A stretch of DNA of 25,772 nucleotides, taken from IMG/VR virus record IMGVR_UViG_3300031218_000306, positions 1 through 25,772 of that record; one strand, given 5' to 3'. A model generated the notes under the pieces. The model did not search any database and was not told the DNA's origin. It worked only from the letters and a program-made list of their open reading frames with translations. Below are positions 3 to 20,491 of the stretch, piece after piece; position 1 is the stretch's first letter, and each line of letters opens with the position of its first letter. This stretch comes from a virus. The translations under genes were made by a program, and so were the position numbers.

Positions 3-239
3 CAAGCACCGTTCACACCGGCGGGGGCAGTGGACGGGCACAGCTCCCTACAGGACCGGATCGACCATGCCGAGGCCGTGCGCGCCAAGGCGCGCGAGGT
101 AGATCGGATCAAGGCGCGGCTGGCGCGCGAGAAGCAATTCAACAAGCGCGTGGCGATCAACGCAGAGCTTCGCGCGGCGAAATTGGAATTGGAACGGCTC
201 ACCGGGGCGACCGCCCAACCGGCCGCACAGAGTGAGTGA
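3..239 (+). CDS. DUF4391-like protein, C-terminal part (cut by left edge)
   Basis: The reading frame is open from the left edge to TGA at 237-239, so this is the 3' end of a longer gene. A GTG at position 30 exists, but nothing marks it as the true start. The visible 78 residues form a charged helix rich in Lys, Arg, Glu and Ala, with the stretch AREKQFNKRVAINAELR followed by KLELERL. This resembles the C-terminal coiled coil of DUF4391 proteins as I remember that family; the identification is from memory, not from a search. DUF4391 genes are commonly found beside Type III methyltransferase genes, which fits the position here, a few bases before mod. Its biochemical role is unknown; its place in the operon suggests an accessory or regulatory part of the R-M system. 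Confidence 0.6.
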   Translation, partial: QAPFTPAGAVDGHSSLQDRIDHAEAVRAKAREVDRIKARLAREKQFNKRVAINAELRAAKLELERLTGATAQPAAQSE

Positions 240-252
240 GAGGACGATGAGT

Positions 253-2163
253 ATGGATAAGATGAAGCTGCACAGCCCCGACCTGAGCCAGGACAACATC
301 GCCAAGATCCGCGATTTGTTTCCGGGCTGCGTGAGCGAGGCCGCGGACGAGAACGGCAGACTGCGGCTTGCGGTGGATTTCGATCAACTTCGGCAGGAAC
401 TGAGCGACCATATTGTCGAAGGTGGGCAAGAAAGGTACCGGCTCGATTGGCCAGGAAAGCGTGAGGCTGTTGCACTTGCCAATGCACCGATCCTAAAAAC
501 GCTGCGTCCTTGCGAAGAAGAGAGCTCAAATTTTGCTTCGACCCGAAACCTGTTCCTGGAGGGGGACAATTTTGAAGTACTCAAGACCATTGAGGATACA
601 TTCTTGGGGGCTGTGAAACTCATTTACATCGATCCGCCTTATAATACGGGCAGAAATCTCATTTACAAAAATGACTATAGCGAAAGAACCGCTGACTTTC
701 TGGAAAGGTCAGGACAACTAGATGAAGACGCCGGAAAACTCGTCGCAAACCCCGAGACCAACGGAAGGTTCCATTCTGATTGGCTTTCGATGATGTATCA
801 GCGGCTCAAGGTTGCAAAAAATGTACTGGCGAAAGACGGCGTATTGGTATGTGCAATCGACGAAAACGAGTTTGGCACTTTGTCTGTGCTCATGAAAGAG
901 GTATTTAGCGGCGCTGCTTGGGAGCATGCTTACGTGAGTGTGGTGCACAATCCCAGGGGCCAACAGGGAACCAATTTTTCCTACGTAAATGAATACCTGA
1001 TCTTTGTTTTCCCGAGCGGGACCAAGGCCATTGGAGATCGAAAAATCCGAGAAGAGGATGTTAGCTGGTCGCAATTTCGGAATTGGGGGGGCGAGTCAGA
1101 GAGAACTGATGCAAAGAATTGCTTCTACCCAGTGCTGGTTAAGGAAGGCAAGATCATTGGTTTTGGAGACGTATGCCCCGACGATCTCCACCCAAAGCAG
1201 ACGGAGTGGAAAGGTGAAGTCGCCTATGTCTTTCCCATTGATAAATCCGGAGTTGAGCGGAAGTGGCGATACGCAAGACAAAGCGTTGATAACATCGCCA
1301 CTATGCTGCGTGCTAGGCAATCAGGCGACGGTTATCAGATTGAAATCGGAAAAACTTTTGGCCTCTATCGAAGCGTTTGGACAGACAAGCGCTATGATTC
1401 TAACGAATATGGAACAAAGCTTGTAAATGGCCTTGTCGAAGGATCTGGCTTCACTTTTCCAAAGAGCCTTTGGGCAGTCTATGACCCTGTAGAAGCAGTG
1501 ACAGGCAACGACAAGGATGCCATCGTTCTGGACTTCTTCGCAGGTTCGGCGACCACCGCGCATGCCGTTATGCAGCTTAACGCGGACGACGGGGGAAATC
1601 GACGTTTCGTTATGGTGCAGGTCCCAGAACCAATTGACCCCGGCCTTCCGCCATATAAGCGTGGCTTCACTACGATTGCAGAAATTTCTAAGGAACGCAT
1701 TCGCCGTGCCGGAAAGGAGATCCTTAAGGGTGAATGCCACTCTGACTGGAAGCGCGATGTTGGATTCCGAGTCCTGAAGATCGACACGTCGAACATGCGG
1801 GACGTCTATTATCGTCCTGACGAAGTCAAACAGGCCGACCTGCTCACCGCCGTCGACAACGTCAAACCGGACCGAACGGCCGAAGACTTGCTCTTCCAGG
1901 TGCTGGTGGACTGGGGCGTCGACCTGACGCTCCCCATCCGGCGCGAGACCGTGCAGGGCAAGATCGTGTTCTTTGTCGACGACAACGCGCTGGTCGCTTG
2001 TTTTGACACTGGCATCACCGAGGATCTGGTGAAGGAGCTGGCCGGGCATGAACCGCTGCGCGTCGTGTTCCGCGACAACGGCTTCGTCTCGGATGCTGTG
2101 AAGATCAACGTCGAACAGATCTTCCGCCAGCTCTCTCCCACCACCGACGTCAAAACCATTTGA
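253..2163 (+). CDS. mod: Type III restriction-modification methyltransferase subunit (Mod)
   Basis: An N6-adenine DNA methyltransferase of the beta class that modifies the system's recognition site and provides target recognition for the Res subunit. The catalytic motif DPPYNTG is at residues 127-133, and the S-adenosylmethionine-binding motif DFFAGSATT is at 427-435. The catalytic motif precedes the SAM motif, as expected for this class. The roughly 300 residues between them should hold the target recognition domain. The length, 636 residues, is normal for Mod. I chose ATG 253 because GAGAGGA lies about 8 bases upstream and the N-terminus ([13 protein letters not shown]) matches typical Mod starts. 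ATG 247 and GTG 232, which would overlap the previous gene, remain possible. GC falls to about 40% in the middle rows (660-720, 1380-1440) against about 60% near the 3' end. Function is confident; sequence specificity cannot be read. Confidence 0.95.
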
Positions 2164-2176
2164 AAGGGCGACAAAC

Positions 2177-5100
2177 ATGAAACTGAAGTTCAAGGTCCAG
2201 CCCTATCAAACCAATGCCGTCGACTCCGTCGTGGACTGTTTCGCCGGTCAGCCAATGGCCAGTGGCGTCAACTATCGGATCGACCCCGGCCGCAAGGCAC
2301 AGACCAGCGCGTTCGAGGAAGGCTTCAAGAACGCCGACATAGCGCTGAGTGAGGCACAAGTTCTGGCAAACATCCAAGATGTGCAGCACCGCCAGAACCT
2401 GCCGTTCAGCCAAAGCCTCACAGACTTCACCGCCGTCAACGGGCGTGGCGAGCGAACACCGGCGCCAACGACCTACACCCGCGACGCGCTGGCCGCGAGC
2501 CGCTACCACCTCGACGTCGAGATGGAAACCGGGACCGGCAAGACCTATTGCTACATCAAGACCATCTTCGAGATGAACAAGCGCTTCGGCTGGTCGAAGT
2601 TCATCATAATGGTGCCCAGCATTGCGATCCGCGAAGGCGTCTACAAATCGCTTCAGATCACGGCTGACCACTTCACGGAAAGCTACGGCAAGAAGGCAAG
2701 GTTCTTCATCTATAATTCCAAGCGTCTGCACGAGCTGGAAAGCTTCTCGTCGGACGCTGGCATCAACGTGATGGTCATCAATATTCAGGCCTTTGCTGCC
2801 CGTGGTGCGGATAACCGTCGCATCTACGACGAGCTCGACGACTTCCAGTCTCGCCGCCCCATCGACGTGATCGCCAGCAACCGGCCGATCCTGATCCTGG
2901 ACGAGCCGCAAAAAATGCAGGGTAACGCGACGATGGAAGCGTTGCCAAAGTTCAAGCCACTCATGGTCCTTCGTTATTCAGCCACCCACAGGACACAGCA
3001 CAACCGGATCCATCGCTTGGACGCCTTGGATGCCTACAACCAGAAGCTCGTGAAGAAGATCGCCGTACGTGGAATCCAAACGCGCGGTCTGGCCGGAACC
3101 AATGCCTACCTTTACCTCGAGGGGATCGACATCTCGAAGAAGGCGCCGGTCGCCCGGATCGAAATGGAAGTGAAGCTGAAATCCGGCGAAATCAAACGGC
3201 AACTTCGGCGGCTGGAATTTCGCGACGACCTGTTCACGCTTTCCGGGGAGCTGGATCAGTACAAAGGCTTCACGATCTCTCAGATCGACTACAACCACGA
3301 CACGGTGGAATTCACCAACGGCGAGGTGCTTACGGCTGGCGAGGCCACAGGTGACGTGTCAGAGCGCGACATCCGGCGGATCCAGATCCGCGAGACGATC
3401 AAAGCGCATTTCGACAAGGAAAAGCAGCTCTTCGCTCAAGGGATCAAGGTCCTTTCGCTATTTTTCATCGATGAGGTGGTTAAGTACCGTGACTACGGTC
3501 AGCCGGACGAAAATGGAGAGTACGCCCGTGTCTTTGAAGAGGAATACGAGCTGTTGAAGGAAGAGTATCTTTCAGAGCTGGCAATCGACAACGAGGCGTA
3601 CCGAAAGTATCTCGCAGCAATTGATGTGACGAAGACTCACAACGGCTATTTCTCAATCGACAAGAAAACCAAACAGTTGAAGGATCCCGCAGTCGGTGCG
3701 CGGGCCGTCGATTCAGATGATGTCGACGCTTATGATCTCATCCTGAAGGACAAGGAGAGCTTGCTAAGCCTTCCCGGTCCAACCGACAGCGCTGATCAAC
3801 GGGCAAAAAGAGAAGTTCGTTTCATTTTCTCTCACTCTGCGCTGCGGGAGGGGTGGGACAACCCCAATGTCTTTGTCATGTGCATGTTGAAGCATAGCGA
3901 CAATACGATCTCTCGGCGCCAAGAAGTGGGTCGGGGTTTGCGGCTATCCGTAAACCAGCACGGTGACAGAATGGACCACCCGGCGGCGGTTCATGACATT
4001 AATGTTCTTACGGTGGTCGCGAGCGAAAGCTACAAGGACTTCGTGGGCGGGCTGCAGAAGGAAATTTCGGAGACTTTGTCCTCACGGCCCCGGCAGGCCA
4101 CCGAAGCCTACTTTGCAGGCAAGACCATCACCACCGATGCGGGCCCTATTGAAATCACGCCTGCAATGGCGAAGCAGGTCTACAGATATCTCGTCAAGAA
4201 TGATTACACGGACGACGCTGATCAAATTTCTGAAGACTACCACAAGGCAAAAGAAGCAGGCACGCTGGTCGAGTTGCCAGATGAACTTAAGCCGCATGCC
4301 GAGCAGATATTCCAGCTCATTGACAGTGTGTTCAGCGATGCACAGCTGCCTAAAGTCGACGACGGGCGAAAACCAAAGACGAACCCGCTCAATGCCAACT
4401 TCGAGAAGAAGGAATTCCAGGAGCTCTGGTCCCGGATCAATCGGAAAGCAGTCTATCGCGTGGACTTCAACTCAGCTGAGTTAGTTCGAAAATGTGTCCG
4501 CGCCCTCGACAGCCAGCTACGCGTAACACCACTTCAGTATACCGTTCAAGCAGGCGTTCAGACGGATGGGATTACCGACGACCAGTTGAAGGCTGGCGAC
4601 GGTTTCGAGGTGACCGCGACTTCCACCCAACATGGTGGCTCGGTGTACTCACGAGTGAAATATGACTTGGTTGGCAAGATCGCAGAGAATTCCCAGCTCA
4701 CGCGTCAGTCGACTGCCTCAATCCTTTCAGGCTTAGAGGCTAGTATCTTCGCTCAGTTTCAGCAGAATCCAGAGCACTTTATCGCAGAGGCATCGCGGAT
4801 TATTGCCGAGCAGAAGGCGACGATGATTATCGAGCGTCTGAGCTATGACGAGGTCGCTGACTGCTACGACGTCGATATCTTCACCGCCAATCAGAGCGGT
4901 CAAGATTTCTCGCGCGCAAGCGCCAAGCTGAAGAACCACGTCTACGATTATGTTGTAACCGATTCTGATGTCGAAAAGCGTTTCGTGGCAGAGTTGGAAA
5001 CCAGCTCAGAAGTGGTCGTATACGCCAAGCTTCCTCGTGGTTTCCTCATTCCAACGCCAGTTGGAGATTACAACCCAGATTGGGCGATCTCTTTCAAGGA

Positions 5101-5305
5101 TGGGGGCGTGAAACATATTTATTTCGTGGCTGAAACCAAAGGTTCGATGTCAACGATGAAATTGCGCGAGATAGAGAAGACCAAAATCGAGTGCGCCAGA
5201 AAATTCTTTGATGAAATCAGTCAGAAAATTTCACAAGATAAGGTGAAATACGAGGTCGTCACTGATTATGCAAAGTTGATGGATATAGTCGGTCGTGCAG
5301 CGTGA
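2177..5305 (+). CDS. res: Type III restriction endonuclease subunit (Res, helicase-nuclease)
   Basis: The ATP-dependent helicase and nuclease subunit that, with Mod, senses pairs of unmethylated sites and cleaves DNA. It is 1042 residues long. Walker A METGTGKT is at 116-123, the Walker B/DEAx-type motif DEPQ at 242-245, RYSATH is the motif III region, and QEVGRGLR starts near 582 (motif VI). The C-terminal PD-(D/E)xK nuclease site is visible as PD at 967-968 followed by ETK at 986-988. All catalytic elements are present and the frame is intact, so the enzyme should be active. Its ATG lies 13 bases after the mod stop with AAAGGG as ribosome binding site, so the two subunits are translationally close. 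The second half is somewhat AT-richer than the first, again hinting at a mosaic history. Confidence 0.95.
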
Positions 5306-6252
5306 TGAAACCCCGCTCGATCAACATCTTCCTCCTCGACGGCGATCCGAACGGCATTCGGGTAGCGCAAATCTCGATGTCTACGATCCAGGCAATCGCC
5401 TTCCGCCGCAACCAGCTGCGCCGGGTTCGCGAGGCTTTTCCCGAGATTGAGCGGCCAGGCGTCTATATCTTGATTGGCTCCGATGACAATCAGGCGGATC
5501 AGCAACTCGCCTATATCGGTGAGTCTGAAGGTATCGGTGGTAGGCTATCCACTCACAACTCCAATGAAAGCGGGCGAGATGCTAAAGGTTTTTGGACAGA
5601 CACGGTTGTCCTGATAAGCAAAGATGAGAACCTTACCAAAAGCCATGCGCGCTACGTGGAAGCATGCTTGATCCGTAGCGCTGGGAGCAATCCTCGCTGG
5701 ACCCTGCCCAATACTAGAATGCCGTCCAACGATGCTGGGAAGTTACCGCTTCCTGATCGCGCGGCCATGGACGAATTTGTTGATCAGACGAAAACACTGG
5801 TCGGCGCTCTCGGCTGGGATGTGTTTCGCGAGATGCGTGGGCGGGCACCGCAAATGATACCGCTAGAACAGGACATGCTGCAGCCTGAGCCGATCGCAAG
5901 CGCAAAATTCTTTTTCCGTGGCGAAGGCTTTTCGGCAGAAATGGTGGTCGGCCCGTCCGGGGATTTCATTGTTCAAGCGGGGTCAAAAGCGCGGCTTCGA
6001 ACTACATCCACAATCCCCAGAGGAACCACGACTTTGCGCTCCACCCTGCTTGAAAAGGGCGTGTTGCGTGAAGACGGGAAATTTCTCCTCTTTACCAGCA
6101 ACTACAGCTTTTCATCGGTTTCAGCCGCCGCTGCAGCAGTGATCGGAGCAAGCGCGAACGGCCGAATTCTTTGGAAGCTGCCCGACGGATCAACCTATGC
6201 GGATTGGGAGTCGGGTCTGAGCGAAAAAGACGCTGCTGAGCCAACCAAATAG
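5305..6252 (+). CDS. GIY-YIG nuclease-like protein with C-terminal DUF4357
   Basis: Predicted 315-residue protein with a GIY-YIG nuclease core. GVYIL at 52-56 and AYIGES at 69-74 are the two name-giving strands, Arg80 is the conserved arginine, and Glu119 in the helix KSHARYVEA is the likely metal ligand. The C-terminus, about 244-296, resembles DUF4357: RSTLLEKGVL, then FLLFTSNYSFSSVSAAAA and NGRILWKLPDG. The ATG at 5305 shares one base with the res stop (TGATG), so translation is coupled to res; a GTG at 5302 is an alternative. Co-translation with a Type III system suggests an accessory nuclease or DNA-binding function in the same defence unit. Its substrate is unknown. Family assignment rests on motifs seen by eye. 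Confidence 0.85.
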   Translation: MKPRSINIFLLDGDPNGIRVAQISMSTIQAIAFRRNQLRRVREAFPEIERPGVYILIGSDDNQADQQLAYIGESEGIGGRLSTHNSNESGRDAKGFWTDTVVLISKDENLTKSHARYVEACLIRSAGSNPRWTLPNTRMPSNDAGKLPLPDRAAMDEFVDQTKTLVGALGWDVFREMRGRAPQMIPLEQDMLQPEPIASAKFFFRGEGFSAEMVVGPSGDFIVQAGSKARLRTTSTIPRGTTTLRSTLLEKGVLREDGKFLLFTSNYSFSSVSAAAAAVIGASANGRILWKLPDGSTYADWESGLSEKDAAEPTK

Positions 6253-10475: not shown

Positions 10476-13400
10476 TCATGTCTCCTGCACTGGGGCGACC
10501 AAGGGGGCGATCACTGTGGCCGTGGCGGGAAAACCGCGCCCGACCGCCGCGCTGATCTGGTGGACGCGCAGGGTGAGCGTGCCCGGCACCGCGCCGAAAT
10601 CGGCCTCCGCGTCCTCTGCTGTGTAGAGCACCTGCGGCGTGGCACTCTCCAGCACCCGGATCACCTCGCCACCTGCACCCAGCACGTCCACCTCATAGGC
10701 CTCCGCCGCCTCGGCGAGGGGCACGGTACCGGTGCCGTCACGCCAGTCGCCGCCGATCCGGGTGCGTCGCCGCCAGCCGATCGTGATGCCGGCGGCCGTC
10801 CACGCGCCCGCGACATGCGCCGGGGCGTAGGGCTTGAGATCGGTGCCGCGCAGGGTTTGCGTCACCGTGTCCCCCTCGTCGAACGCCTCGCCCCGGCCGA
10901 CGCCGCGATAGCGCAGCGGCTGGCCGACCAGCCCGAGGGGTTCGGTAAACAGCGCGCCCTCGTCCTCGAGCACCACGATCACCGCCCCGGCCGCATGCGC
11001 GAGCCGGGCCTCGGAGCCGCGCCGCCCGCGCAGCAGCGTCGAGAGCCGGTAGATATCATTGCCGAGCGGCGTGACATCGCGAAACTGGATCAGCTCGGCC
11101 CCGCCATCCGCATCGACCACCAGTGCTGCGTTGCGGCCATTGAGCAGCTGCAGGTCCGAGACCGATTCGAGCTGACCGTTGGGGTCGCGCAGGCGCGCCT
11201 CAACGACATTCGCCGCGTCCCATGTCCAGACCGAGCGCGGCGGGCCGAGCGGTGCCCGCAAGGTGCCGATCAGCGCGGGATCGCTGATGCGCGCCGGGAT
11301 GTCCCAGTCCGCCCCGTCGCGCGAGCGAAAGAGCGACAGGCCGGTCCACGGCCCCGCCACGCGCGGGGCGGCGAATAGATACTGCCGCGACGCCACGCCG
11401 CCGGTATCATGGCGATCGCGCAGCAGCGGGACTTGTGGCACGACCCACCGTGAGGGCACATCACCGAGCACGCCCGAGGTTTGGGCCCCGGTGCCGGTCG
11501 CGCCGATGGCCTCGGAGACATAGGCCGACCCGATATGCCGGACGCCCTTCGCGCGCAGCTCCCAGTCCGCGCCGATCTCGACCTGCGTGAGCCGCACTGC
11601 CACCTCGGAGCCGCCCGGTGCGTTGATACGTAACAGATCCGTCGGATCGAGGCGCAGAAACCCCGGCCGCAGGGCAAACTCGACCCCATCGCGCTCGATC
11701 CAGGCCGAGGCCATGAGGCGTTCGGCGATGCGTTTGGCCTCCGTGGCCTCGAGCGCCATGGGCAGTTCCACGTCGCGCTTGTCGCGCGAGCCCATCGTGG
11801 CGACGGGCTGCGAGACCCGCGTGGCGGACTGGGCGCCCTGATTGTAGTCGCCGCCCGTTCCCTGACCGGTCTCCTGGCCGGCGTCCTGATAGGTGACGGT
11901 GATACGCTCGGGCAAATCGGTCTCCTGCACGCGCTGGAGCTGCACGACGCGGCCGGTGTCGCGCGCGGGCACGAGATCGTCCGCGGTCAGAAGCGGGGCG
12001 TCAACAGCGGACCTTGCGCGCGGGACAAAGCGGATCCGGTCGTCGGACTCGACCGCGTCGAAGGAAAACGCCTGCGCCACCGGCTCTATGCCCGACCGCG
12101 CCGAGCCCTGCCGGCCGATGGCGTAGCCCCGGAATACCGGCGCGTCGATCTCGGACACGTCGATATCGGCAGGCCCAAGCCCGACGCGGGCGCAGATATC
12201 CGCAACGACGCTGCCCGGCGTCACGCCTTCTCCGGCCGTGCGGTTGAGAAACAGCCGGGTTGCGGCCGATCCGGTCTGCACATAGCCCGTGAGCGTGTCC
12301 GAGCGGGCGTCATACCCCGCGGCCTCGCCGCCGCCGAAGATGCTGCCCGCGGCGAATCCTTCGGTGAACAGGATCTCCGCGCCGGTGCGCAGATCGACCT
12401 GGCAGACCTGCGGTTCGCGATGCCACGCCATGCGCCTTCCCTCGGTGCGGGACTTCGCTATGGCCATGTTCTCCTTGCGCCTGGTGGAGAACGCAAAGAG
12501 CGACAGCCGCGTCGCCCAGATCACCCCGTCACCGGGGCGCCACTTGACCGCATACCGCCCGGCGAGCTCCCCGAGCGCGTCCGGAAACGCGAGGGCGCTG
12601 ATCCACACGAGCGCGTCATCGACGGGATCATACACAGCCCCGGCCGGCTCATATGTGAATCCGGTCGCGTCAGGGTGGATGTCGGCCGGAGAAAGCTGCC
12701 AGTGCCCGGCATTCTCGACGACAGGCTGGGGTGCGCCCGGGCGCAGGCGGAGCCGCTCGATGGGAATGGTGCTGGCCGTGCCGGTATTTGACGTGCGCAG
12801 GATCCACGCTTCGCCGAGGCCCTCGCCCACGAGACCCTGCACGATAGTCTCGACATTGGTCGGCCCCGGTCCCATGCGCGGCAGGTTGGCGAGAAACTCC
12901 ATCGTCTCCGTGAGAATGCAGCCATGGCCGCCGCCGAAGCGGCCCGAGGCGATCAGGACATCGACAGGGCCGGTCAGGCTGAGCGCGCGCATCCAGCCGA
13001 GTGTCGTGAGGGATACGAAGCCGCCTGCGTTGTTGCTCAGGCTGCTGCTGCGGCGCCCGAAGCTGTCCACGATCGCCATGGCGTCGAGATCGATCTTCAC
13101 GATCGGCTTGGTGTTGCTGATGCCCAGCTGAGTGTAGGCATACCCATCGCCGCCGATGAAGCAGTGATCGAACCTGAAATTATCCTTGTAGAGGTTCAAT
13201 GCGTCGGCCAGCGCGTCGGAAATCAGATCCTCGGGCTGTGCCTGCGCCAATTCCTCCAGCGTGCGCAGATCGAACAGCCGCAGACCGTCCGGCGACAGCA
13301 TGAGCTGGCGCTGGCGGTGCCAGTCGGTGGCCCCGTAGCTCGTCAGCACGCTGTCGAGCGCGCCGCCGGGCAGCGATGTGCTCTTGAGCGCGGGGTACGC

Positions 13401-14024
13401 CGCCCGCGCGTTGAAGGTCACCTCGGCGGTGATGTTGGGGATGCGGTTGCCGAAGTTCTCCAGCGGCAGATCCTCGAACACCAGATAGGCCAGTCCGCGA
13501 AAGGCCGGGGTGCGGCCATGGCCTTGCGTGGCCTCGATCAGCGGATCAGGCAGCTGGTCCTCGCTGCCTTCGTGGAACCGGAACTCCAGACCGGGGATCG
13601 ACACATCCGGATTGGTGCCGCGCGCGTCATGGATGAGCTTGCCATCGGCCCAGATCCGGATGAGGTCGCCGGCCGGGCCTTCGGCGAGCCCGAGCGCGAA
13701 GGAGGCGTAGTAGCCATAGGTGGTCTGACGCTGACCGCCGCCGCCCTTGCCGCCCACCTTGCGGGTCTGGCGTTCCTCGCGAATCCCGGGCGCCCAGATC
13801 ACGTTGCCAGAGGCGCGCATGGTGCCGTAGATCAGCGGGATCGGCGCGCCCCAGGCCGAGGAGGTCACCGACAGATCGCGCAGGCGCGGCCCCTCGATAT
13901 CGGGCTGGTCGGGGCCGAACAGGAGAGAGCCGACAGTCGAGCCGATCAGCCAGCCGGCCTGCCAGCCCAGCCCGAGCGCCGTGCTGCCGAGCGCGCCCGC
14001 GCCGGCGATGGCCAGCACCGCCAT
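10476..14024 (-). CDS. Large phage tail tip / host specificity protein (gpJ/GTA-like, Phage-tail_3)
   Basis: A 1182-residue protein forming the tail tip and likely determining host contact. The hydrophobic, glycine-rich N-terminus (MAVLAIAGAGALGSTALG) and the segment VTSSAWGAPIPLIYGTMRAS are typical of this family. Residues about 225-600 contain repeated strand motifs (DGLRLFDLRTLEEL, KIDLDAMAIVDSF, QVCQVDLRTGAEILF) suggesting a beta-propeller. Residues about 600-790 match the Phage-tail_3 type (TPGSVVADICARVGLG, LPERITVTYQD, KRIAERLMASAW). The C-terminus ends in a fibronectin/Ig-like strand region. ATG 14024 shares a base with the NlpC stop (TGATG). The upstream extension of the frame lies inside the NlpC gene and is rejected. 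Confidence 0.9.
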   Translation of the reverse strand: MAVLAIAGAGALGSTALGLGWQAGWLIGSTVGSLLFGPDQPDIEGPRLRDLSVTSSAWGAPIPLIYGTMRASGNVIWAPGIREERQTRKVGGKGGGGQRQTTYGYYASFALGLAEGPAGDLIRIWADGKLIHDARGTNPDVSIPGLEFRFHEGSEDQLPDPLIEATQGHGRTPAFRGLAYLVFEDLPLENFGNRIPNITAEVTFNARAAYPALKSTSLPGGALDSVLTSYGATDWHRQRQLMLSPDGLRLFDLRTLEELAQAQPEDLISDALADALNLYKDNFRFDHCFIGGDGYAYTQLGISNTKPIVKIDLDAMAIVDSFGRRSSSLSNNAGGFVSLTTLGWMRALSLTGPVDVLIASGRFGGGHGCILTETMEFLANLPRMGPGPTNVETIVQGLVGEGLGEAWILRTSNTGTASTIPIERLRLRPGAPQPVVENAGHWQLSPADIHPDATGFTYEPAGAVYDPVDDALVWISALAFPDALGELAGRYAVKWRPGDGVIWATRLSLFAFSTRRKENMAIAKSRTEGRRMAWHREPQVCQVDLRTGAEILFTEGFAAGSIFGGGEAAGYDARSDTLTGYVQTGSAATRLFLNRTAGEGVTPGSVVADICARVGLGPADIDVSEIDAPVFRGYAIGRQGSARSGIEPVAQAFSFDAVESDDRIRFVPRARSAVDAPLLTADDLVPARDTGRVVQLQRVQETDLPERITVTYQDAGQETGQGTGGDYNQGAQSATRVSQPVATMGSRDKRDVELPMALEATEAKRIAERLMASAWIERDGVEFALRPGFLRLDPTDLLRINAPGGSEVAVRLTQVEIGADWELRAKGVRHIGSAYVSEAIGATGTGAQTSGVLGDVPSRWVVPQVPLLRDRHDTGGVASRQYLFAAPRVAGPWTGLSLFRSRDGADWDIPARISDPALIGTLRAPLGPPRSVWTWDAANVVEARLRDPNGQLESVSDLQLLNGRNAALVVDADGGAELIQFRDVTPLGNDIYRLSTLLRGRRGSEARLAHAAGAVIVVLEDEGALFTEPLGLVGQPLRYRGVGRGEAFDEGDTVTQTLRGTDLKPYAPAHVAGAWTAAGITIGWRRRTRIGGDWRDGTGTVPLAEAAEAYEVDVLGAGGEVIRVLESATPQVLYTAEDAEADFGAVPGTLTLRVHQISAAVGRGFPATATVIAPLVAPVQET

Positions 14025-14485
14025 CAGACCACCCCCGGAATGCGCCAGGCCGCGCGCCGGCGCGACAGCCATGGCTCGATCAGCGGCTCCTCGAGCACGC
14101 AGCGCCGCAGCGCATGCGCGTGCAGCAGATGCGGGACACCGTGCCGCGCGGTGAGGAACCCCGCATGGCAGGGATAGCTGGTCTCGGCAAAGACCAGAAT
14201 GTCGCCGGGGCAAGAGTCGGCGAGGGGAAGCGGGTCGAGATCGACCGCAAATGCCTCCAGCAGCCTCGTGCCGGTCGCGCGTCGGTCATAGCCCGTCACG
14301 TCATGATGCGGCACGCCGAGCGCGTCGGCGACCACGATCAGCAGCCCGATGCAGTCGACACCGGCCGGCCCGCGGCCCTGATGACGCCAGCGCGCCCCGA
14401 TCCAGCGGCGTGCTTCGGTCACGATATCGTCACCGCGCATTGGCGCATCGTGCACTGGCTCTCTATCCATTGATTCACCGTGCAT
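14024..14485 (-). CDS. NlpC/P60-type phage tail tip peptidase
   Basis: A 153-residue cysteine peptidase of the phage NlpC family (TIGR02219-like), which opens peptidoglycan during DNA injection or helps assemble the tail tip. The catalytic Cys45 is in GVDCIGLL and the catalytic His107 in PCHAGFL; a His in HLLHAHA (122-125) could be the third residue. The frame starts at ATG 14485, which has GGAG 7 bases upstream and overlaps the end of the DUF2163 gene by 11 bases. ATG 14440 would lose this binding site. The gene lies between DUF2163 and the tail tip, the standard order in GTA-like tails. Confidence 0.9.
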   Translation of the reverse strand: MHGESMDREPVHDAPMRGDDIVTEARRWIGARWRHQGRGPAGVDCIGLLIVVADALGVPHHDVTGYDRRATGTRLLEAFAVDLDPLPLADSCPGDILVFAETSYPCHAGFLTARHGVPHLLHAHALRRCVLEEPLIEPWLSRRRAAWRIPGVV

Positions 14486-15338
14486 TGGGCGTCTCCGTCA
14501 GCTTGTCGGCGCCGGGCACGAAGGGATCGCCCCGGAAATTGAGCACATTGTCGAAGCGCTCGATGCAGGTAGAGAGCCGCTTGTCGCAGCCCGGATAGAT
14601 CTCGAACGCGTCGCCCGTCCCGACCGGAAATGGCGGCGGGAAGGACAGCACCAGATCACCCGTCGCCAGATCCGCGCCGCGGACCTCGATGGCCCGGCCG
14701 CTGTTCTGCCCGGATGTGAAGCGAATGACCCCGCCGGCGAACCAGTCGTCGGGTTTGTCGGTGATATCGATCGCCGCGGTGAACGACAGCGCGTCGAGCG
14801 GCGCGGTGACGAGGCCTGGCCGCGTCCATTGCGGATCGCGGATGTCCACCCCGCAGCGCGCGTCGCCGAGATCGGCGCGGCAGTCGGGCGTGTAGGGCTC
14901 GATCAGCCGCTGTGCGAGCACCTGGGACATGCCGCGCAGTTCGGTGCGCCACTGGCCCTCGCTCGACAGCATGACCTCGCCCAGCCAGCCGCGGCGCAGC
15001 CGGAGGGTGCCCTGCGACGGATCCTGCCAGTTGACCAGGAAGATCCGCACTTCGGCGCCGTCATAGAGCCCGGCGCGCAACGCGTCCGCGTCGATCCCGG
15101 CATCGTCGAGCACGCCCTCGAGATCGACATTGCCGACCGCGAGCCCGGCCTCCGAGGCCACGGCGGTGCGCGAATACCCCGCACGCGCGCGGTAGATCTC
15201 GCCGTCGACCGCGAGATCGCCATCGTGATCGGTGGCGCGAAACACCACCCCGTCGCGGCGCGCCAGCCGCCAGCAGGTGGCCAGTGTGAGCACATCGCCC
15301 TCAAGATGCGCGGCCAGTTCCGGGGAGACCGTCTTCAT
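14475..15338 (-). CDS. DUF2163/TIGR02218 tail hub protein
   Basis: A 287-residue protein of the TIGR02218 family, a baseplate hub component in gene transfer agents and related phages. Supporting segments are CWRLARRDGVVFRATDHDGD near the N-terminus, MSQVLAQRLIEPYTPDCRAD in the middle, and the C-terminal YPGCDKRLSTCIERFDNVLN. The four cysteines (CRADLGDARC and CDKRLSTC) are characteristic and may bind a metal, as inferred for the family. ATG 15338 has an AAGG site and lies 10 bases after the DUF2460 stop; the longer frame overlaps the upstream gene. The neighbours on both sides are the expected partners. Confidence 0.9.
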   Translation of the reverse strand: MKTVSPELAAHLEGDVLTLATCWRLARRDGVVFRATDHDGDLAVDGEIYRARAGYSRTAVASEAGLAVGNVDLEGVLDDAGIDADALRAGLYDGAEVRIFLVNWQDPSQGTLRLRRGWLGEVMLSSEGQWRTELRGMSQVLAQRLIEPYTPDCRADLGDARCGVDIRDPQWTRPGLVTAPLDALSFTAAIDITDKPDDWFAGGVIRFTSGQNSGRAIEVRGADLATGDLVLSFPPPFPVGTGDAFEIYPGCDKRLSTCIERFDNVLNFRGDPFVPGADKLTETPNAR

Positions 15339-15348
15339 GACATCACCT

Positions 15349-15951
15349 TCATTCGCGGATCTCCACCACGGTGATGCGGCCCCATTGCTGCATCTCGAAG
15401 GTCTCGACGGTGAGATCGGCGGCATCGGTGTCGAACCGCGCCGGCACGTCGAACTCGAAATCCGCGGTGACGGCGACGCCGGGGTCTGGCGGTGTCGAGA
15501 AGGTGATGATCCCTGTCGCGTAATCCACCGAAACCCCGGACGTGGCCTTCACACCGTCGCGATAGACCATGACCGTGCCCTCGACCGGGCGCGTGATCCG
15601 GCGTTCGTGCACGGTGCCCCCGCTGTCATAGCGTCGGACCAGTTGAAAGGCGATCTGTTCTCCGTCGCCCGTCCCAAGCAACTGTCCCGCCGCCCGGAAA
15701 TCGGTCCAGTCCTTGAAGCGAAACCCGTGCGCACGGCCGCGGCGGGCGTAGAAGAAGGCGAGGAATGCGGACACGTCGGCGCGCGAGCGGATGCCCGTGG
15801 AGACGTTCCATTCGCCGCGGGAGCCCTGCCACTGTGCCACGCGCTGCTCGCGCCCGCTCTGCGTGGCGGTAATAGCGGTCAGGAACCGCGGCCCGCCGCT
15901 GGCGCCATAGGCGATGGTGGCCGGAAACTGCACATCGTGAAAGTCGGTCAT
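15349..15951 (-). CDS. DUF2460/TIGR02217 distal tail protein
   Basis: A 200-residue protein of the TIGR02217 (DUF2460) family, the distal tail component between the tube and the hub. Typical segments are FHDVQFPATIAYGASGGP at the N-terminus, FLAFFYARRGRAHGFRFKDW in the middle and AVTADFEFDVPARFD before the C-terminus. ATG 15951 is preceded by AGGAG that overlaps the tape measure stop, indicating tight coupling. The length and position match the family. It is probably the first protein assembled on the tape measure initiator complex. Confidence 0.92.
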   Translation of the reverse strand: MTDFHDVQFPATIAYGASGGPRFLTAITATQSGREQRVAQWQGSRGEWNVSTGIRSRADVSAFLAFFYARRGRAHGFRFKDWTDFRAAGQLLGTGDGEQIAFQLVRRYDSGGTVHERRITRPVEGTVMVYRDGVKATSGVSVDYATGIITFSTPPDPGVAVTADFEFDVPARFDTDAADLTVETFEMQQWGRITVVEIRE

Positions 15952-15959
15952 CTGTGCTC

Positions 15960-18509
15960 CTACCTGTTGCGCCGCGCCCGCGCGATGGCGCGGCTCATCT
16001 CAGCGGTGATCTGGCCCTGCGAGCGGCGGAAGCTGTCGGCATCGGGCGTGCTGATGCTCATGTTAATGGTGATGCCACCGCCGTGGTCACCGCCAGCACC
16101 GCGCTGCGTCTCGGCCACCTCCCTTCGCGACAGCACCCGCTCGCCGCGCTGCAGGATCGCGGGGACCTCGTCGGGCCGAAGGCCCGCAACACCAGAACCG
16201 GGGCGGAGACCGGGATAACCGCCACCATGGAAACGCTCAGCCCCGGCGAAGGCCATGGCCGGCACCTGCCGCTGCGGCAGTGCCGAGACACCGATCACTC
16301 CGCCCGAATGCGCCACCGCTGCGGTGAGGCTGCCGCCCAAGCTACCTCCAAGCCCGCCCCCGATTCCGCCAAGCGCGCCGCCCAGCCAGTTGGCGAGGGG
16401 CCCGAGCACCGCCGAGCGCAGCGCGATGCGGGTGATGTTCTCGAGGATCGAATTGGCCAGATCGCGAAAATCCACCTTGCCCTTTGTGACCAGCGCCAGA
16501 AGCGCGTCCTCGGCCCCGCGAAACGCACTGACCAGCGCATCGCCGATCTGGCGGCCGGTTTCCATCGCACTGTCAGCATAGCCCTGAAGGCTTTCTGAGA
16601 CCGCATCCCAGCCGCGCGCCGCCGTCTCGCCGGCTGCCGCGATCGTGTTGCCGGCCTCCGTGGCGGCGTTGGCCGCACGTCCCGCGGCACCGCTGCTGCC
16701 GGAACCGGTGCCGGAGGCCCCATCCGTGCCGCCGGCGATCCCGTCAAAAGCATCGCCGATCCCGGCGACGGAGTCCGCTGACGCATCGGCCGCCTCCGAT
16801 GTCCGCGCCAGCACCTCGCGGATCGCCGCGACCGACTCCAGCGGCCCGGTCGCCGCGGCGCGCAACGCATCGACCACCCCGCGGAGTGCGTCCTGCGTGG
16901 CCCGGGCGTCCGCGGCATAGGCCCCGAGGCCGAGATCGGGGACGCGATACTCCCGCTCGAAGGCTTGCGTGAACGCCTCCGCCGCCCGGCCGCCGGCGTC
17001 GCGTGCCGCGCCCGCGAACCGGTTCCCCAAATTGCCGAGGCTGACATCCTCGAGCGCGCCGATGCGCAGCCCGCTGTCGCCCACGGCCCATGCCGGCAAT
17101 GCGGCGAGCACCGTGTTGATCCCGGCGATGAAGCGGTTCACCCGCCCGATCACCGAATTGAGCATCCGCTCCACGCCGCGCACCATGGCATTGGCCGCCC
17201 CGGTCACGACCTCGCCCAGCACGGCCGGCAGATCGGACCAGATCGCGCTTGTTGCTGCGAACGCCCCGCGCCACGTGTTGACGATCAGCGATGCGCCGCG
17301 CGCCACCGCGTCAAGACTGGCCTGCACGCCGTCGGCGACACTGGCGCGGATGCCGGCCCACGCTGCCGCCACCGTCGCCCCGAGCGCCTGTGCGCCGGTG
17401 CCCATGCGGTCCCAGACCTCCGCGGCCACGCCGCGCATAAGATCGAGGGCGTCGGAGAAACTCCCGGCAGCAGCGACCAGTCGGCCAAAGCGCAGGATCA
17501 GCTCCTGCGCGCCGATCACCAGCGCCACGAAGGGCAGCCGGATCAGCGCCCCGCGCAACAGCGCCAGCGCCGTGGCCAGCCCGCGCACGCTGACAGCCGC
17601 CGCTGCCAACCCGGCCACAAAACGCCCCGCCACAAGCCCTGCTGTCGCTGCAAGCGTGGCCGCCAGCCGGTCGAGATTGCCCAGCACCAGCTCGATGGCA
17701 CGGCCCACCGGGCCGCTGCGCTCCGCGAGTGCTGCCATCGCGTCGGCCACGGCCTCCAGCGCCGGGGCTGCGGCCACCGCCAGCTGGTTGGCCAGCCCGC
17801 GCCAGATCAGCCCCAGCCGCGAGATCGCATCGTTGGTCCGCTCGATCTGGGTCGCGTCCTGCGCCGAGACCACGACCCCGAAGGCGCGCACGTCCTTGGT
17901 CGCCTGGCGCAGCGTGGCGCTATCGATCCGGCCCATGGCGATCGAACCTTCCTCGCCGAAAAGCTGGCCCGCCACCGCGGCCCGCTCGGCCGCGGGGACG
18001 AACTCCTTGATGGCGGCGTTGATCGCCCCGACACGCTCATCGAGCGGCAGCGCGATCAGGTCGGTGGCCGACAGCCCCAGCCGGTCCAGCGCGTCCGTGG
18101 CGGGGCCGGTCCCGGCCGCGGCCTGGCTGAGACGGCGCGTCAAATCCTTGGTCGCCTGCTCGATGCCCGACATCGACACGCCCGCCAGCTCGCCCGCGCG
18201 CTCCAGCGTCTGGATCGAGGCGACGGTGGTGCCCAGCGATTGCGCCAGCTTGGCCTGGCTGTCGACGACCTGCAGCCCGCTGCGGATCATCGCCGTGGCT
18301 GCAGCCCCCACGGCCGCAGCACCTGCCGCCGCCGCGATCCGCAGCCGGCGAAAGAACCGGTCGGCGCGCGCATTCGCGGCTTCCATCTCCGAGCCGAGAC
18401 GCTGAAAGGCGGTGGCGCCGTCGGCCCCGATCCCCTTGAGTTCCGCGCGCACCTGCCGGCCACCCTCGGCCGCCAGCCGCACCGTGACCTGTTTTGATGC
18501 GCTGGTCAT
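15960..18509 (-). CDS. Tail length tape measure protein
   Basis: An 849-residue Ala-rich, largely helical protein that sets tail length and is threaded through the tube. The N-terminus (MTSASKQVTVRLAAEGGRQV) and the segment QSLGTTVASIQTLERAGELA are typical of tape measure proteins. Several hydrophobic stretches lie near 58-75 and 260-330. The C-terminal GLRPDEVPAILQRGERVLSR is common to phage tape measures and is near the likely processing end. ATG 18509 has GGAG upstream. It follows the tail chaperone pair, as in lambda. A tail of moderate length is implied by the protein length, as inferred from the family rule. Confidence 0.92.
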   Translation of the reverse strand: MTSASKQVTVRLAAEGGRQVRAELKGIGADGATAFQRLGSEMEAANARADRFFRRLRIAAAAGAAAVGAAATAMIRSGLQVVDSQAKLAQSLGTTVASIQTLERAGELAGVSMSGIEQATKDLTRRLSQAAAGTGPATDALDRLGLSATDLIALPLDERVGAINAAIKEFVPAAERAAVAGQLFGEEGSIAMGRIDSATLRQATKDVRAFGVVVSAQDATQIERTNDAISRLGLIWRGLANQLAVAAAPALEAVADAMAALAERSGPVGRAIELVLGNLDRLAATLAATAGLVAGRFVAGLAAAAVSVRGLATALALLRGALIRLPFVALVIGAQELILRFGRLVAAAGSFSDALDLMRGVAAEVWDRMGTGAQALGATVAAAWAGIRASVADGVQASLDAVARGASLIVNTWRGAFAATSAIWSDLPAVLGEVVTGAANAMVRGVERMLNSVIGRVNRFIAGINTVLAALPAWAVGDSGLRIGALEDVSLGNLGNRFAGAARDAGGRAAEAFTQAFEREYRVPDLGLGAYAADARATQDALRGVVDALRAAATGPLESVAAIREVLARTSEAADASADSVAGIGDAFDGIAGGTDGASGTGSGSSGAAGRAANAATEAGNTIAAAGETAARGWDAVSESLQGYADSAMETGRQIGDALVSAFRGAEDALLALVTKGKVDFRDLANSILENITRIALRSAVLGPLANWLGGALGGIGGGLGGSLGGSLTAAVAHSGGVIGVSALPQRQVPAMAFAGAERFHGGGYPGLRPGSGVAGLRPDEVPAILQRGERVLSRREVAETQRGAGGDHGGGITINMSISTPDADSFRRSQGQITAEMSRAIARARRNR

Positions 18510-18552
18510 TGGGACTCCGATCCCTGTTTCTCTGCTTTTATGGCGTGTCGTT

Positions 18553-18876
18553 TTACTGTGGGCGCTGCGCCCGGATCTGCGCGTTGACCGCGCGCACCAT
18601 CGCCGCCTCGATCACCGGCAGAAGCTCGACCGCGGCGCGTGGGTCGAGCCCGGCAGCTGTGGCCATGGCCAGCACCGCGCCCATGTCCCAGCCGAGCACC
18701 GCGCCGTCCGAGACGCGCAGCTGGCCGGTGGCCCGGCAGGCGACATCCCAGGCCAGCGCGCCCTCGCGCGTCAGCGGCGCGTTTTGCCGCGCCGGGCAGG
18801 CTTTGCAGATTTGCGGGCAGTTGTTGCAGTACCCGTCGCCCCCGCCGAAGTGCCATTCGGCGAGGGCGCTGAGGCG
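18553..18876 (-). CDS. Tail assembly chaperone second domain (T), made only by -1 frameshift
   Basis: This 107-residue frame has no start codon of its own in a suitable place. It is open without a stop from the slippery site at 18882-18876 to TAA at 18553-18555. Its translation is protein-like: RLSALAEWHFGGGDGYCNNC near the start, then LTREGALAWDVACRATGQLR and LDPRAAVELLPVIEAAM. A cluster C-x2-C-x3-C-x2-C lies at domain residues 17-27. By analogy with lambda gpG/gpGT, a -1 shift would join it to the first 115 residues of the upstream gene, giving a 222-residue fusion that helps load the tape measure and tail tube. It lies directly before the tape measure gene, the expected place. Confidence 0.85.
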   Translation of the reverse strand, partial: RLSALAEWHFGGGDGYCNNCPQICKACPARQNAPLTREGALAWDVACRATGQLRVSDGAVLGWDMGAVLAMATAAGLDPRAAVELLPVIEAAMVRAVNAQIRAQRPQ

Positions 18877-19220
18877 TTTTTTTCCTGCTCCAGATGCAGG
18901 CCCGGGGCCACGTAGCGCAGCTGGAACGCCTCGAAGATCGGCACGATCTCCAGCAGTGCGTCGAGCCCTTCGGGGCTGAGCGCGGCCGGCGCGTCGGTGG
19001 CATCATGCACGCCGGCCCAGTCATCCACGGCCACCCGAGCCAGCGCCTTTGCGAGGGCTATGCCGCGCCTGTTCGCGCTGGCCTCTTCCGGCAGATCCGC
19101 GAGGATCGGCTCCTCGCGGGCACGGTTCATCAGCGAGGTGGTGATCGGGGCCACGCGCAGCTGCACACCGTGGCCGAGATCGAGCCAGTCGGGCGACGCG
19201 TTCAGGTCGAGACGGATCAT
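18771..19220 (-). CDS. Tail assembly chaperone (G analogue)
   Basis: A 149-residue protein whose first half (MIRLDLNASPDWLDLGHGVQ, RGIALAKALARVAVDDWAGV, LLEIVPIFEAFQLRYVAPGL) looks like a helical tail chaperone. After the slippery codons at residues 114-115 the zero-frame tail becomes a low-complexity Ala/Thr/Lys/Arg stretch ending GKTRR, as expected for the non-shifted product. ATG 19220 shares a base with the tail tube stop (TGATG). By the lambda model the short form is made in excess and the frameshifted form in a fixed small ratio. It acts in the cytoplasm and is not expected in the finished virion. Confidence 0.85.
   Translation of the reverse strand: MIRLDLNASPDWLDLGHGVQLRVAPITTSLMNRAREEPILADLPEEASANRRGIALAKALARVAVDDWAGVHDATDAPAALSPEGLDALLEIVPIFEAFQLRYVAPGLHLEQEKNASAPSPNGTSAGATGTATTARKSAKPARRGKTRR
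18837..18882 (-). promoter_or_regulatory. -1 programmed ribosomal frameshift signal
   Basis: On the minus strand the heptamer A AAA AAC (18882-18876) is in the correct zero-frame phase (GAA AAA AAC). A 7-base spacer (18875-18869) follows, then a 13-bp stem, 18868-18856 with 18849-18837, containing one G-U pair and closed by a 6-base loop. Slippery site, spacing and stem all fit a standard stimulator. Confidence 0.88.
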
Positions 19221-20491
19221 CAGGTCTCTCCATGGGTTGGGACATCGTTGAGCAGGGCGACCTCGAGCATCACGCCGGTCGCATCTGCGGCGGCGCGCCA
19301 GTCGAAACTCGCCTCGACCCCGGCCGGGCCGGTGATCGAATACTTCGGCTTGGGCAGGTAGACCCGCGGTAGCGTGAAGCTGAGCGCGTAGCCTTCGGCC
19401 ATCGCAAAGCCGTAGACCAGCGCCACCGGATCGCCGCTGGCGGCCTCGGCCATCAGCGTCTCGCCATCGAAGCGCACGGTCAGCGATCCCTCGCAGGTGG
19501 CAAGGGTCGGATCGGCGCCATCGATGCGGCCATCCTCGCGGATCGACCGCACCCGCTCGATGCCGTTGGAGAAGGTCAGCGAGCCGGAGGTGACGCCCGC
19601 CAGCGGTGATCCTGCGCGCACAATGCGCCCGCGTCCCTGGCTGAAGCGGCGCAGCGCGAAGGCGGCGGGGTTCGGCTCCAGCGTGGCAGTTGCGGTCTCC
19701 TCGCCCTGCGCCACGACCGAGACGGTGGCATTGGCCGGGCCTTCCTGGCCCATCTGGAACGACAGCTCCTCCAGCACCGCGCCCGCATGGCGAAAGAAGA
19801 CCGGGGTGGTGAGCTTCGGGTGCCCGATCTCGATCAGGAAGGACGGGATGCTGTCGGCCCCGCTGCGCCAGACATGGCGATAGCCGCCGCCAGTGAGCGT
19901 GGGGGCGGAGCGTTGCGCAAATGAGGCGTCCAGCGTGAAAGCGTTTCCGTCCGGGCCGGTGGCGTCATGGGTGATCGTGAGGGTTGTATCATCCTCGACC
20001 GTGTAAGAAGCGACGGAGATGGCGGGATCTGTGGCGACGTTGAGGTCCGCGGCAAGTGCTGTGAGCGTATCGGCCAGCGTCGCGCCGATCTCGGTCTCGT
20101 CACCGGCCGCAACTCCTGCAACAAGGGTCCATGTCATCCCGTTCAGCGTGAGCGTGTCGCCCGGCGCGGGATTATCCGCGAAGGTGATCCGTCCGGTCGC
20201 CGCCTGCGGTGTGGTCTCGGGATCGCCAAACAGCGCCGTCATCCACCAGCCGGTGCCCTGCAGATCGAACGGGATCTCCAGCTGGCCCTCATCGGTGACC
20301 AGCCCGCGATACGGGTCCTGCGCATTGCGCCCGCGCCCCAGCAGCGGGTCGTCGCCGAGCGGGATGCTCGCCGACAGATCCGCCGTCTTGAAATCGAGCG
20401 CCCGCACCGGGCCGGTTGTGGCCCCGCCATACTGCGTCTCGCGCACCGCCCTGAGTGTGGCATCGGCGCCATAGGCGCGTTGCTTGCCCAT
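19220..20491 (-). CDS. Major tail tube protein with inserted domain
   Basis: A 423-residue tail tube protein. Supporting features are the N-terminal ATLRAVRETQYGGATTGPVR, the segment LVTDEGQLEIPFDLQGTGWW and the central HAGAVLEELSFQMGQEGPAN. Residues about 98-196 form an insert (GRITFADNPAPGDTLTLNG, DTLTALAADLN, TGPDGNAFTLDAS) resembling a domain found in many phage structural proteins; it would probably project from the tube surface. The protein is longer than insert-free tube proteins, consistent with the extra domain. ATG 20491 has AGGAG 5 bases upstream. Its neighbours, terminator upstream and chaperones downstream, are the standard ones. Confidence 0.88.
   Translation of the reverse strand: MGKQRAYGADATLRAVRETQYGGATTGPVRALDFKTADLSASIPLGDDPLLGRGRNAQDPYRGLVTDEGQLEIPFDLQGTGWWMTALFGDPETTPQAATGRITFADNPAPGDTLTLNGMTWTLVAGVAAGDETEIGATLADTLTALAADLNVATDPAISVASYTVEDDTTLTITHDATGPDGNAFTLDASFAQRSAPTLTGGGYRHVWRSGADSIPSFLIEIGHPKLTTPVFFRHAGAVLEELSFQMGQEGPANATVSVVAQGEETATATLEPNPAAFALRRFSQGRGRIVRAGSPLAGVTSGSLTFSNGIERVRSIREDGRIDGADPTLATCEGSLTVRFDGETLMAEAASGDPVALVYGFAMAEGYALSFTLPRVYLPKPKYSITGPAGVEASFDWRAAADATGVMLEVALLNDVPTHGET

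Follow-up and report, generated by a model that had tools for sequence, protein, structure and literature searches.

The window analyzed here, a virus record of 25,772 bases taken in its whole length, carries tailed-phage structural genes on its minus strand. Among them lies a short open reading frame, G (18771..19220, minus strand), whose ATG shares one base with the TGA stop of the gene directly upstream, which encodes a 423-residue tail tube protein (19220..20491, minus strand; Phage_tube_2, E = 2e-44). The 149 codons of G comprise 115 up to and including a slippery heptamer, A AAA AAC (18876..18882, minus strand), and a 34-codon zero-frame tail that ends with the stop at 18773-18771 (minus strand). 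From the heptamer onward, the −1 frame stays open for 107 codons up to a TAA (18555-18553), and this extension, designated T (18553..18876, minus strand), is directly followed by the gene for an 849-residue tape measure protein (15960..18509, minus strand; Tape_meas_lam_C, E = 1e-21; phrog_8462, E = 1e-148). Judged by the profile matches, the gene order is tail tube, G/T, tape measure, as in the lambda-type G/GT arrangement. The tail tip genes on the same strand (10476-15951) resemble those of gene transfer agents, with matches to Rcc01698_C, Phage-tail_3, a phiJL001 Gp84-like hub, BR0599, and DUF2460. Next to the structural genes, but on the other strand, we also noted a type III restriction-modification-like cassette (232-6252, plus strand) with N6_N4_Mtase, ResIII with an RE_endonuc domain, and GIY-YIG with DUF4357.

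Codons 113 to 115 of G read GAA AAA AAC, which places the heptamer in the X XXY YYZ phase that a tandem −1 slip requires. A 7-nt spacer, GCCTCAG (18869..18875, minus strand), separates the heptamer from a putative stimulatory stem-loop (18837..18868, minus strand; −30.9 kcal/mol over a 50-nt stretch), in which positions 18868-18856 and 18849-18837 form 13 pairs, including one G-U, around a 6-nt loop. Translated through a −1 slip, G and T would yield a fusion protein, GT, of 222 residues. In the window, the −1 frame past the heptamer contains no ATG, GTG, or TTG until a GTG at 18699, 59 codons in. A preliminary description of this DNA had reported an in-phase heptamer in a G-like gene, the spacer, stem, and loop at 18837-18882, an open −1 frame of 107 codons reaching the TAA at 18553-18555 ahead of the tape measure gene, and the lack of a useful start codon in that frame; all of these features were confirmed, each at the coordinates given for it.

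The site is also exceptional within its own sequence. The window contains 43 heptamers of the XXXYYYZ type, and the fold behind A AAA AAC at 18882-18876 is the strongest, the second-best fold downstream of any heptamer elsewhere in the window being −16.9 kcal/mol. None of 1492 46-nt stretches sampled from the structural-gene region folds equally well, and the stem-loop has a z score of −4.1 against dinucleotide shuffles of the 50-nt stretch and of −3.4 against synonymous recodings. Ahead of the heptamer, G has a G+C content of 0.77/0.43/0.85 at the three codon positions; past the heptamer, the −1 frame has 0.76/0.56/0.91. Using a codon-usage model trained on the remaining phage genes, the best two-frame switch point was found at 18872-18875, within about one codon of the heptamer, and a switch at this point is ~60 ln units better than frame 0 throughout.

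Residues 6 to 114 of G match PHROG 313, “Tail assembly chaperone” (E = 8e-7). The AlphaFold model of G (mean pLDDT of 86) matches predicted viral tail or pre-tape-measure chaperones in BFVD (E = 6.5e-4; TM-score, 0.55), the best structural match being the “pre-tape measure chaperone” of CcrColossus (E = 6.5e-4; 20% identity in the Foldseek alignment); the same model gave no significant match in the PDB. As judged from its sequence and its predicted fold, G is a tail assembly chaperone. In T, residues 172 to 219 of the fusion match PF24752, or DUF7697 (18565..18708, minus strand; E = 7.9e-22; 77.4 bits versus a cut-off of 27), and residues 168 to 220 match PHROG 11212; no function is assigned in either family. 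The DUF7697 model has 52 positions and covers only the last half of T, and from these matches DUF7697, and likewise PHROG 11212, can be equated with the C-terminal half of the T domain, the first half lying outside the model. In most relatives of the locus, the first usable starts in the −1 frame fall at T codons 52 to 64 (fusion residues 167 to 179), and both family models begin close by. The models have thus probably been shortened by gene callers: they start late, likely because they were built from gene calls unable to begin earlier, and the true T domain would begin at the heptamer.

The first half of T, in the stretch read in two frames, harbors a C-x2-C-x3-C-x2-C motif (Cys4; fusion residues 132 to 142; 18796..18828, minus strand), each Cys of which is kept in 50 to 51 of 51 relatives. 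The motif looks like a zinc knuckle. The AlphaFold model of T has a mean pLDDT of 71.5, with low confidence in the first 20 residues, and did not match any structure in the PDB. Rfam and NCBIfam returned no match, and the family searches did not link T to lambda T by sequence.

Relatives of the locus were confirmed by tblastn at 79 viral-contig loci, at 80 loci of bacterial genomes (mostly Rhodobacteraceae), and in 15 named-phage records; a non-redundant set consisted of 51 genes with <90% identity. In almost every locus with two halves, the C-terminal part lies in the −1 frame of the N-terminal part, and the junction falls at the same heptamer. Within 90 codons past the heptamer, the −1 frame is free of stops in all 51 relatives, whereas frame 0 has a total of 150 stops and frame +1 has 47. 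The heptamer codons are GAA AAA AAC in 49 of 51 relatives, a share to be weighed with the full locus list and its few exceptions, given that the set was chosen by the heptamer at the junction; from the codon usage of the same genes, these codons would be expected in only ~18%. The other two, Rhodobacter cluster RcC phages, have GAG GGA AAC. Probabilities derived from such stop and codon counts overstate significance because kin genes are treated as independent, and it is the contrasts that matter. A third-frame open reading frame of 172 codons (18506-19024, minus strand) overlaps both G and T; the corresponding stretch is stop-free in only 5 of the 51 relatives, and we rejected it as a gene, since it is probably a chance product of GC-rich DNA.

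In a few loci the relation between the halves is disturbed. The isolate genome of Roseisalinus antarcticus (L012:2147-2827 / L086) has A8 followed by C, which brings G and T into one frame; this is either a homopolymer or sequencing error of a draft genome or a case in which frameshifting was lost naturally. Metagenome contigs L002-L004, L029, L048, and L050 carry further indels or frame breaks, and the in-frame G-T fusions of L002-L004 were set aside because several contigs of neighboring metagenome sets have other frame breaks. Indels of this kind could suggest that the two frames of the window reflect a disabling frameshift, or an assembly error, that mimics a signal. However, the same −1 relation is found in isolates, metagenome-assembled genomes, and finished phages, and both frames as well as the hairpin are under selection. 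The probability of such a mimic is negligible, and for the window locus this reading is already refuted by conservation among the sequences compared.

More distant members of the family show a similar organization. A search with PF24752 detected the family in 11 of 289 alphaproteobacterial genomes. In these distant prophages, T lies in the −1 frame of G where both halves can be placed, and the junctions are A AAA AAC or G GGA AAC, with differing stem sequences; one locus (L223) is less clear, as T appears in two frames. At the junction, A8 precedes a G in Synechococcus phage Sc-Yong805-1, in Nostoc phage Nsp-JY21, and in a Maritimibacter prophage. In both cyanophages T is again in the −1 frame of G, and their records annotate it as a separate 77-aa open reading frame.

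These cyanophage annotations, the short DUF7697 model, and the GTG or ATG often present near T codons 52 to 64 could be taken to mean that T is a separate gene, as the gene calls imply, translated from its own start through coupling or internal initiation. The position of the candidate start codon, however, is not fixed among relatives, and in every locus the −1 frame reaches back to the heptamer without a stop. Moreover, the conserved first half of T, including the Cys4 motif and a WxFGGG segment, abuts the heptamer and precedes the usable starts in most loci, which makes an independent start of T extremely unlikely.

The hairpin overlaps a conserved protein segment, ALAEWxFGGGD, and its conservation alone therefore proves nothing. 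Selection on the hairpin was assessed by synonymous recoding in place of covariation, with 200 recodings of the same T peptide per locus. The native RNA was among the best 5% of synonymous foldings at 52 of 62 loci (mean z of −2.5), while three control stretches of the same genes reached the best 5% in 2, 3, and 7 of 51 cases. For the Leu of the stem, CTG is used in 0 of 49 genes, although it makes up 60% of Leu codons in the rest of these genes; for the middle Gly of the stem, GGG is used in 41 of 45, against 14% elsewhere. Stem codon choice tracks pairing, not usage, and the hairpin is under selection beyond protein coding. Consistently, 93.5% of the stem pair cells are paired in register, compared with 44 to 63% when the arms are slid. 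Classical covariation in the stem is weak among close relatives, where changes on both sides were seen in 2 cells, not clearly above shuffles. In a divergent set, RNAalifold recovered only a 4-bp core because the stem registers differ across that set. The unusual hairpin is absent or weak in five relatives (L053, L085, L107, L137, and L226).

Both the hairpin and the heptamer variants bear on whether the shift might take place during transcription, with RNA polymerase gaining or losing an A in the A7 run and the altered mRNA encoding GT without a ribosomal slip. The A7 homopolymer at the junction, and the A8 in the two cyanophages and Maritimibacter, would be suitable for such a process. Genes that depend on transcriptional slippage are expected to conserve a homopolymer run in all members, but at this site the RcC phages, L225, and L226 have G GGA AAC, which is no homopolymer, and a selected downstream hairpin is not needed by polymerase slippage. 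On account of these relatives and of the selection on the hairpin, we regard transcriptional slippage as very unlikely.

Thus, the locus almost certainly directs programmed −1 ribosomal frameshifting in the manner of lambda G/GT. The preliminary description had proposed a tail chaperone frameshift of this type, to be abandoned if close relatives conserved neither heptamer nor −1 frame; we found both to be conserved in the 51 non-redundant relatives, and together with the selection on the hairpin they support the proposal. We infer that most ribosomes would read G through to the stop at 18773-18771 and produce the 149-residue chaperone. A minority would be held at the hairpin with tRNA-Lys and tRNA-Asn on AAA AAC, both tRNAs would move back by one base onto AAA AAA, and the next 107 codons would be read in the −1 frame, yielding the 222-residue GT. 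If the lambda analogy applies, the tape measure protein would be coated by the G part and tail tube subunits would be brought in by the T part, which would make the ratio of G to GT important for building the tail. In E. coli, A_AAA_AAC shifts far less readily than A_AAA_AAG (PMC5009743), which makes the shift efficiency in the phage's own host uncertain.

Like lambda G/GT, the system is flanked by the tail tube and tape measure genes, shifts into the −1 frame near the 3′ end of G, and has an extension without a start codon, giving a short and a long product, the latter being predicted here. That tail chaperone genes use programmed frameshifts is textbook knowledge, and the lambda heptamer is G GGA AAG; unlike lambda, the window has A AAA AAC and a strong 13-bp hairpin. 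The lambda G/GT tail assembly chaperones (Xu, Hendrix and Duda 2004, as cited in PMC5009743) are made at a gpG:gpGT ratio of ~30:1, with G binding the tape measure protein and T binding the tail tube protein (PMC5009743).

The Rhodobacter capsulatus cluster RcC phages RcKemmy (MW677517) and RcKvothe (OP009275) possess the same G/T family, with ~43% identity and the same site, although their heptamer is G GGA AAC rather than the A AAA AAC of the window. GenBank already has a joined coding sequence, “tail assembly chaperone,” for both phages, and the tail chaperone frameshift is termed usual in a paper on R. capsulatus phages (PMC8601537). Among the pre-tape-measure chaperones of Caulobacter phages, AAAAAAC was reported for the phiCbK group and GGGAAAC for CcrColossus (PMC3556154); both heptamers are shared with the window family, but these are different, much larger phages. 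With joined annotation and heptamers known from relatives and from Caulobacter phages, the frameshift is not new in kind, and the suggestion in the preliminary description that the signal may be undescribed holds for the exact locus only.

What is added here is the correspondence of DUF7697 to the C-terminal half of T, the near-invariant Cys4 motif of T, and the predominance of AAC-ended heptamers. DUF7697 and PHROG 11212 would thereby gain a role as the C-terminal half of the T domain, and a large family of prophages, found in Rhodobacteraceae and other Alphaproteobacteria, receives a well-supported frameshift signal; the chaperone of this family is likely split or shortened by gene callers. 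In the Rhodobacter phage RcWaterboi (L242:11933-12660), whose tail chaperone is annotated without a join, G GGA AAC stands in phase immediately ahead of the stop and the −1 frame is open; this phage probably has an unannotated frameshift. RcTiptonus (L243:11594-12486) resembles RcWaterboi, with A AAA AAG.

The heptamer is AAC-ended in nearly all members of the window family, and G GGA AAC is found in the RcA, RcB, RcE, and RcSimone-Hastad phages. Among the Rhodobacter phage clusters compared, only RcF has an AAG-ended heptamer, and no such heptamer was found in RcD phages. We considered a separate Lys-CUU tRNA as the cause of AAC over AAG and rejected it: among the 37 of 41 tRNAs examined in Phaeovulum veldkampii, no Lys-CUU tRNA was found and the only Lys tRNA is Lys-UUU. 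A search of four genomes for Lys-CUU by one guessed anticodon-loop pattern found none. It is possible, if rather doubtful, that heptamers ending in AAC, although weak in E. coli, are efficient shift sites for alphaproteobacterial ribosomes. If so, what makes a slippery site effective would differ between bacterial classes. The preference for AAC becomes testable in a genetically tractable host.

AAC-ended heptamers also occur in the g-t frameshifts of haloarchaeal viruses, with G_GGA_AAC in HCTV-1 and A_AAA_AAC in HCTV-2, while that of HCTV-5 ends in AAG (PMC5009743). HCTV-1 and HCTV-2 thus resemble the window family in their heptamers, but their hosts are archaeal. The RcA, RcB, RcE, and RcSimone-Hastad phages have a zero-frame stop directly after the heptamer; in the window, by contrast, G continues for 34 codons beyond it, and the hairpin lies within the stretch that is read in both frames.
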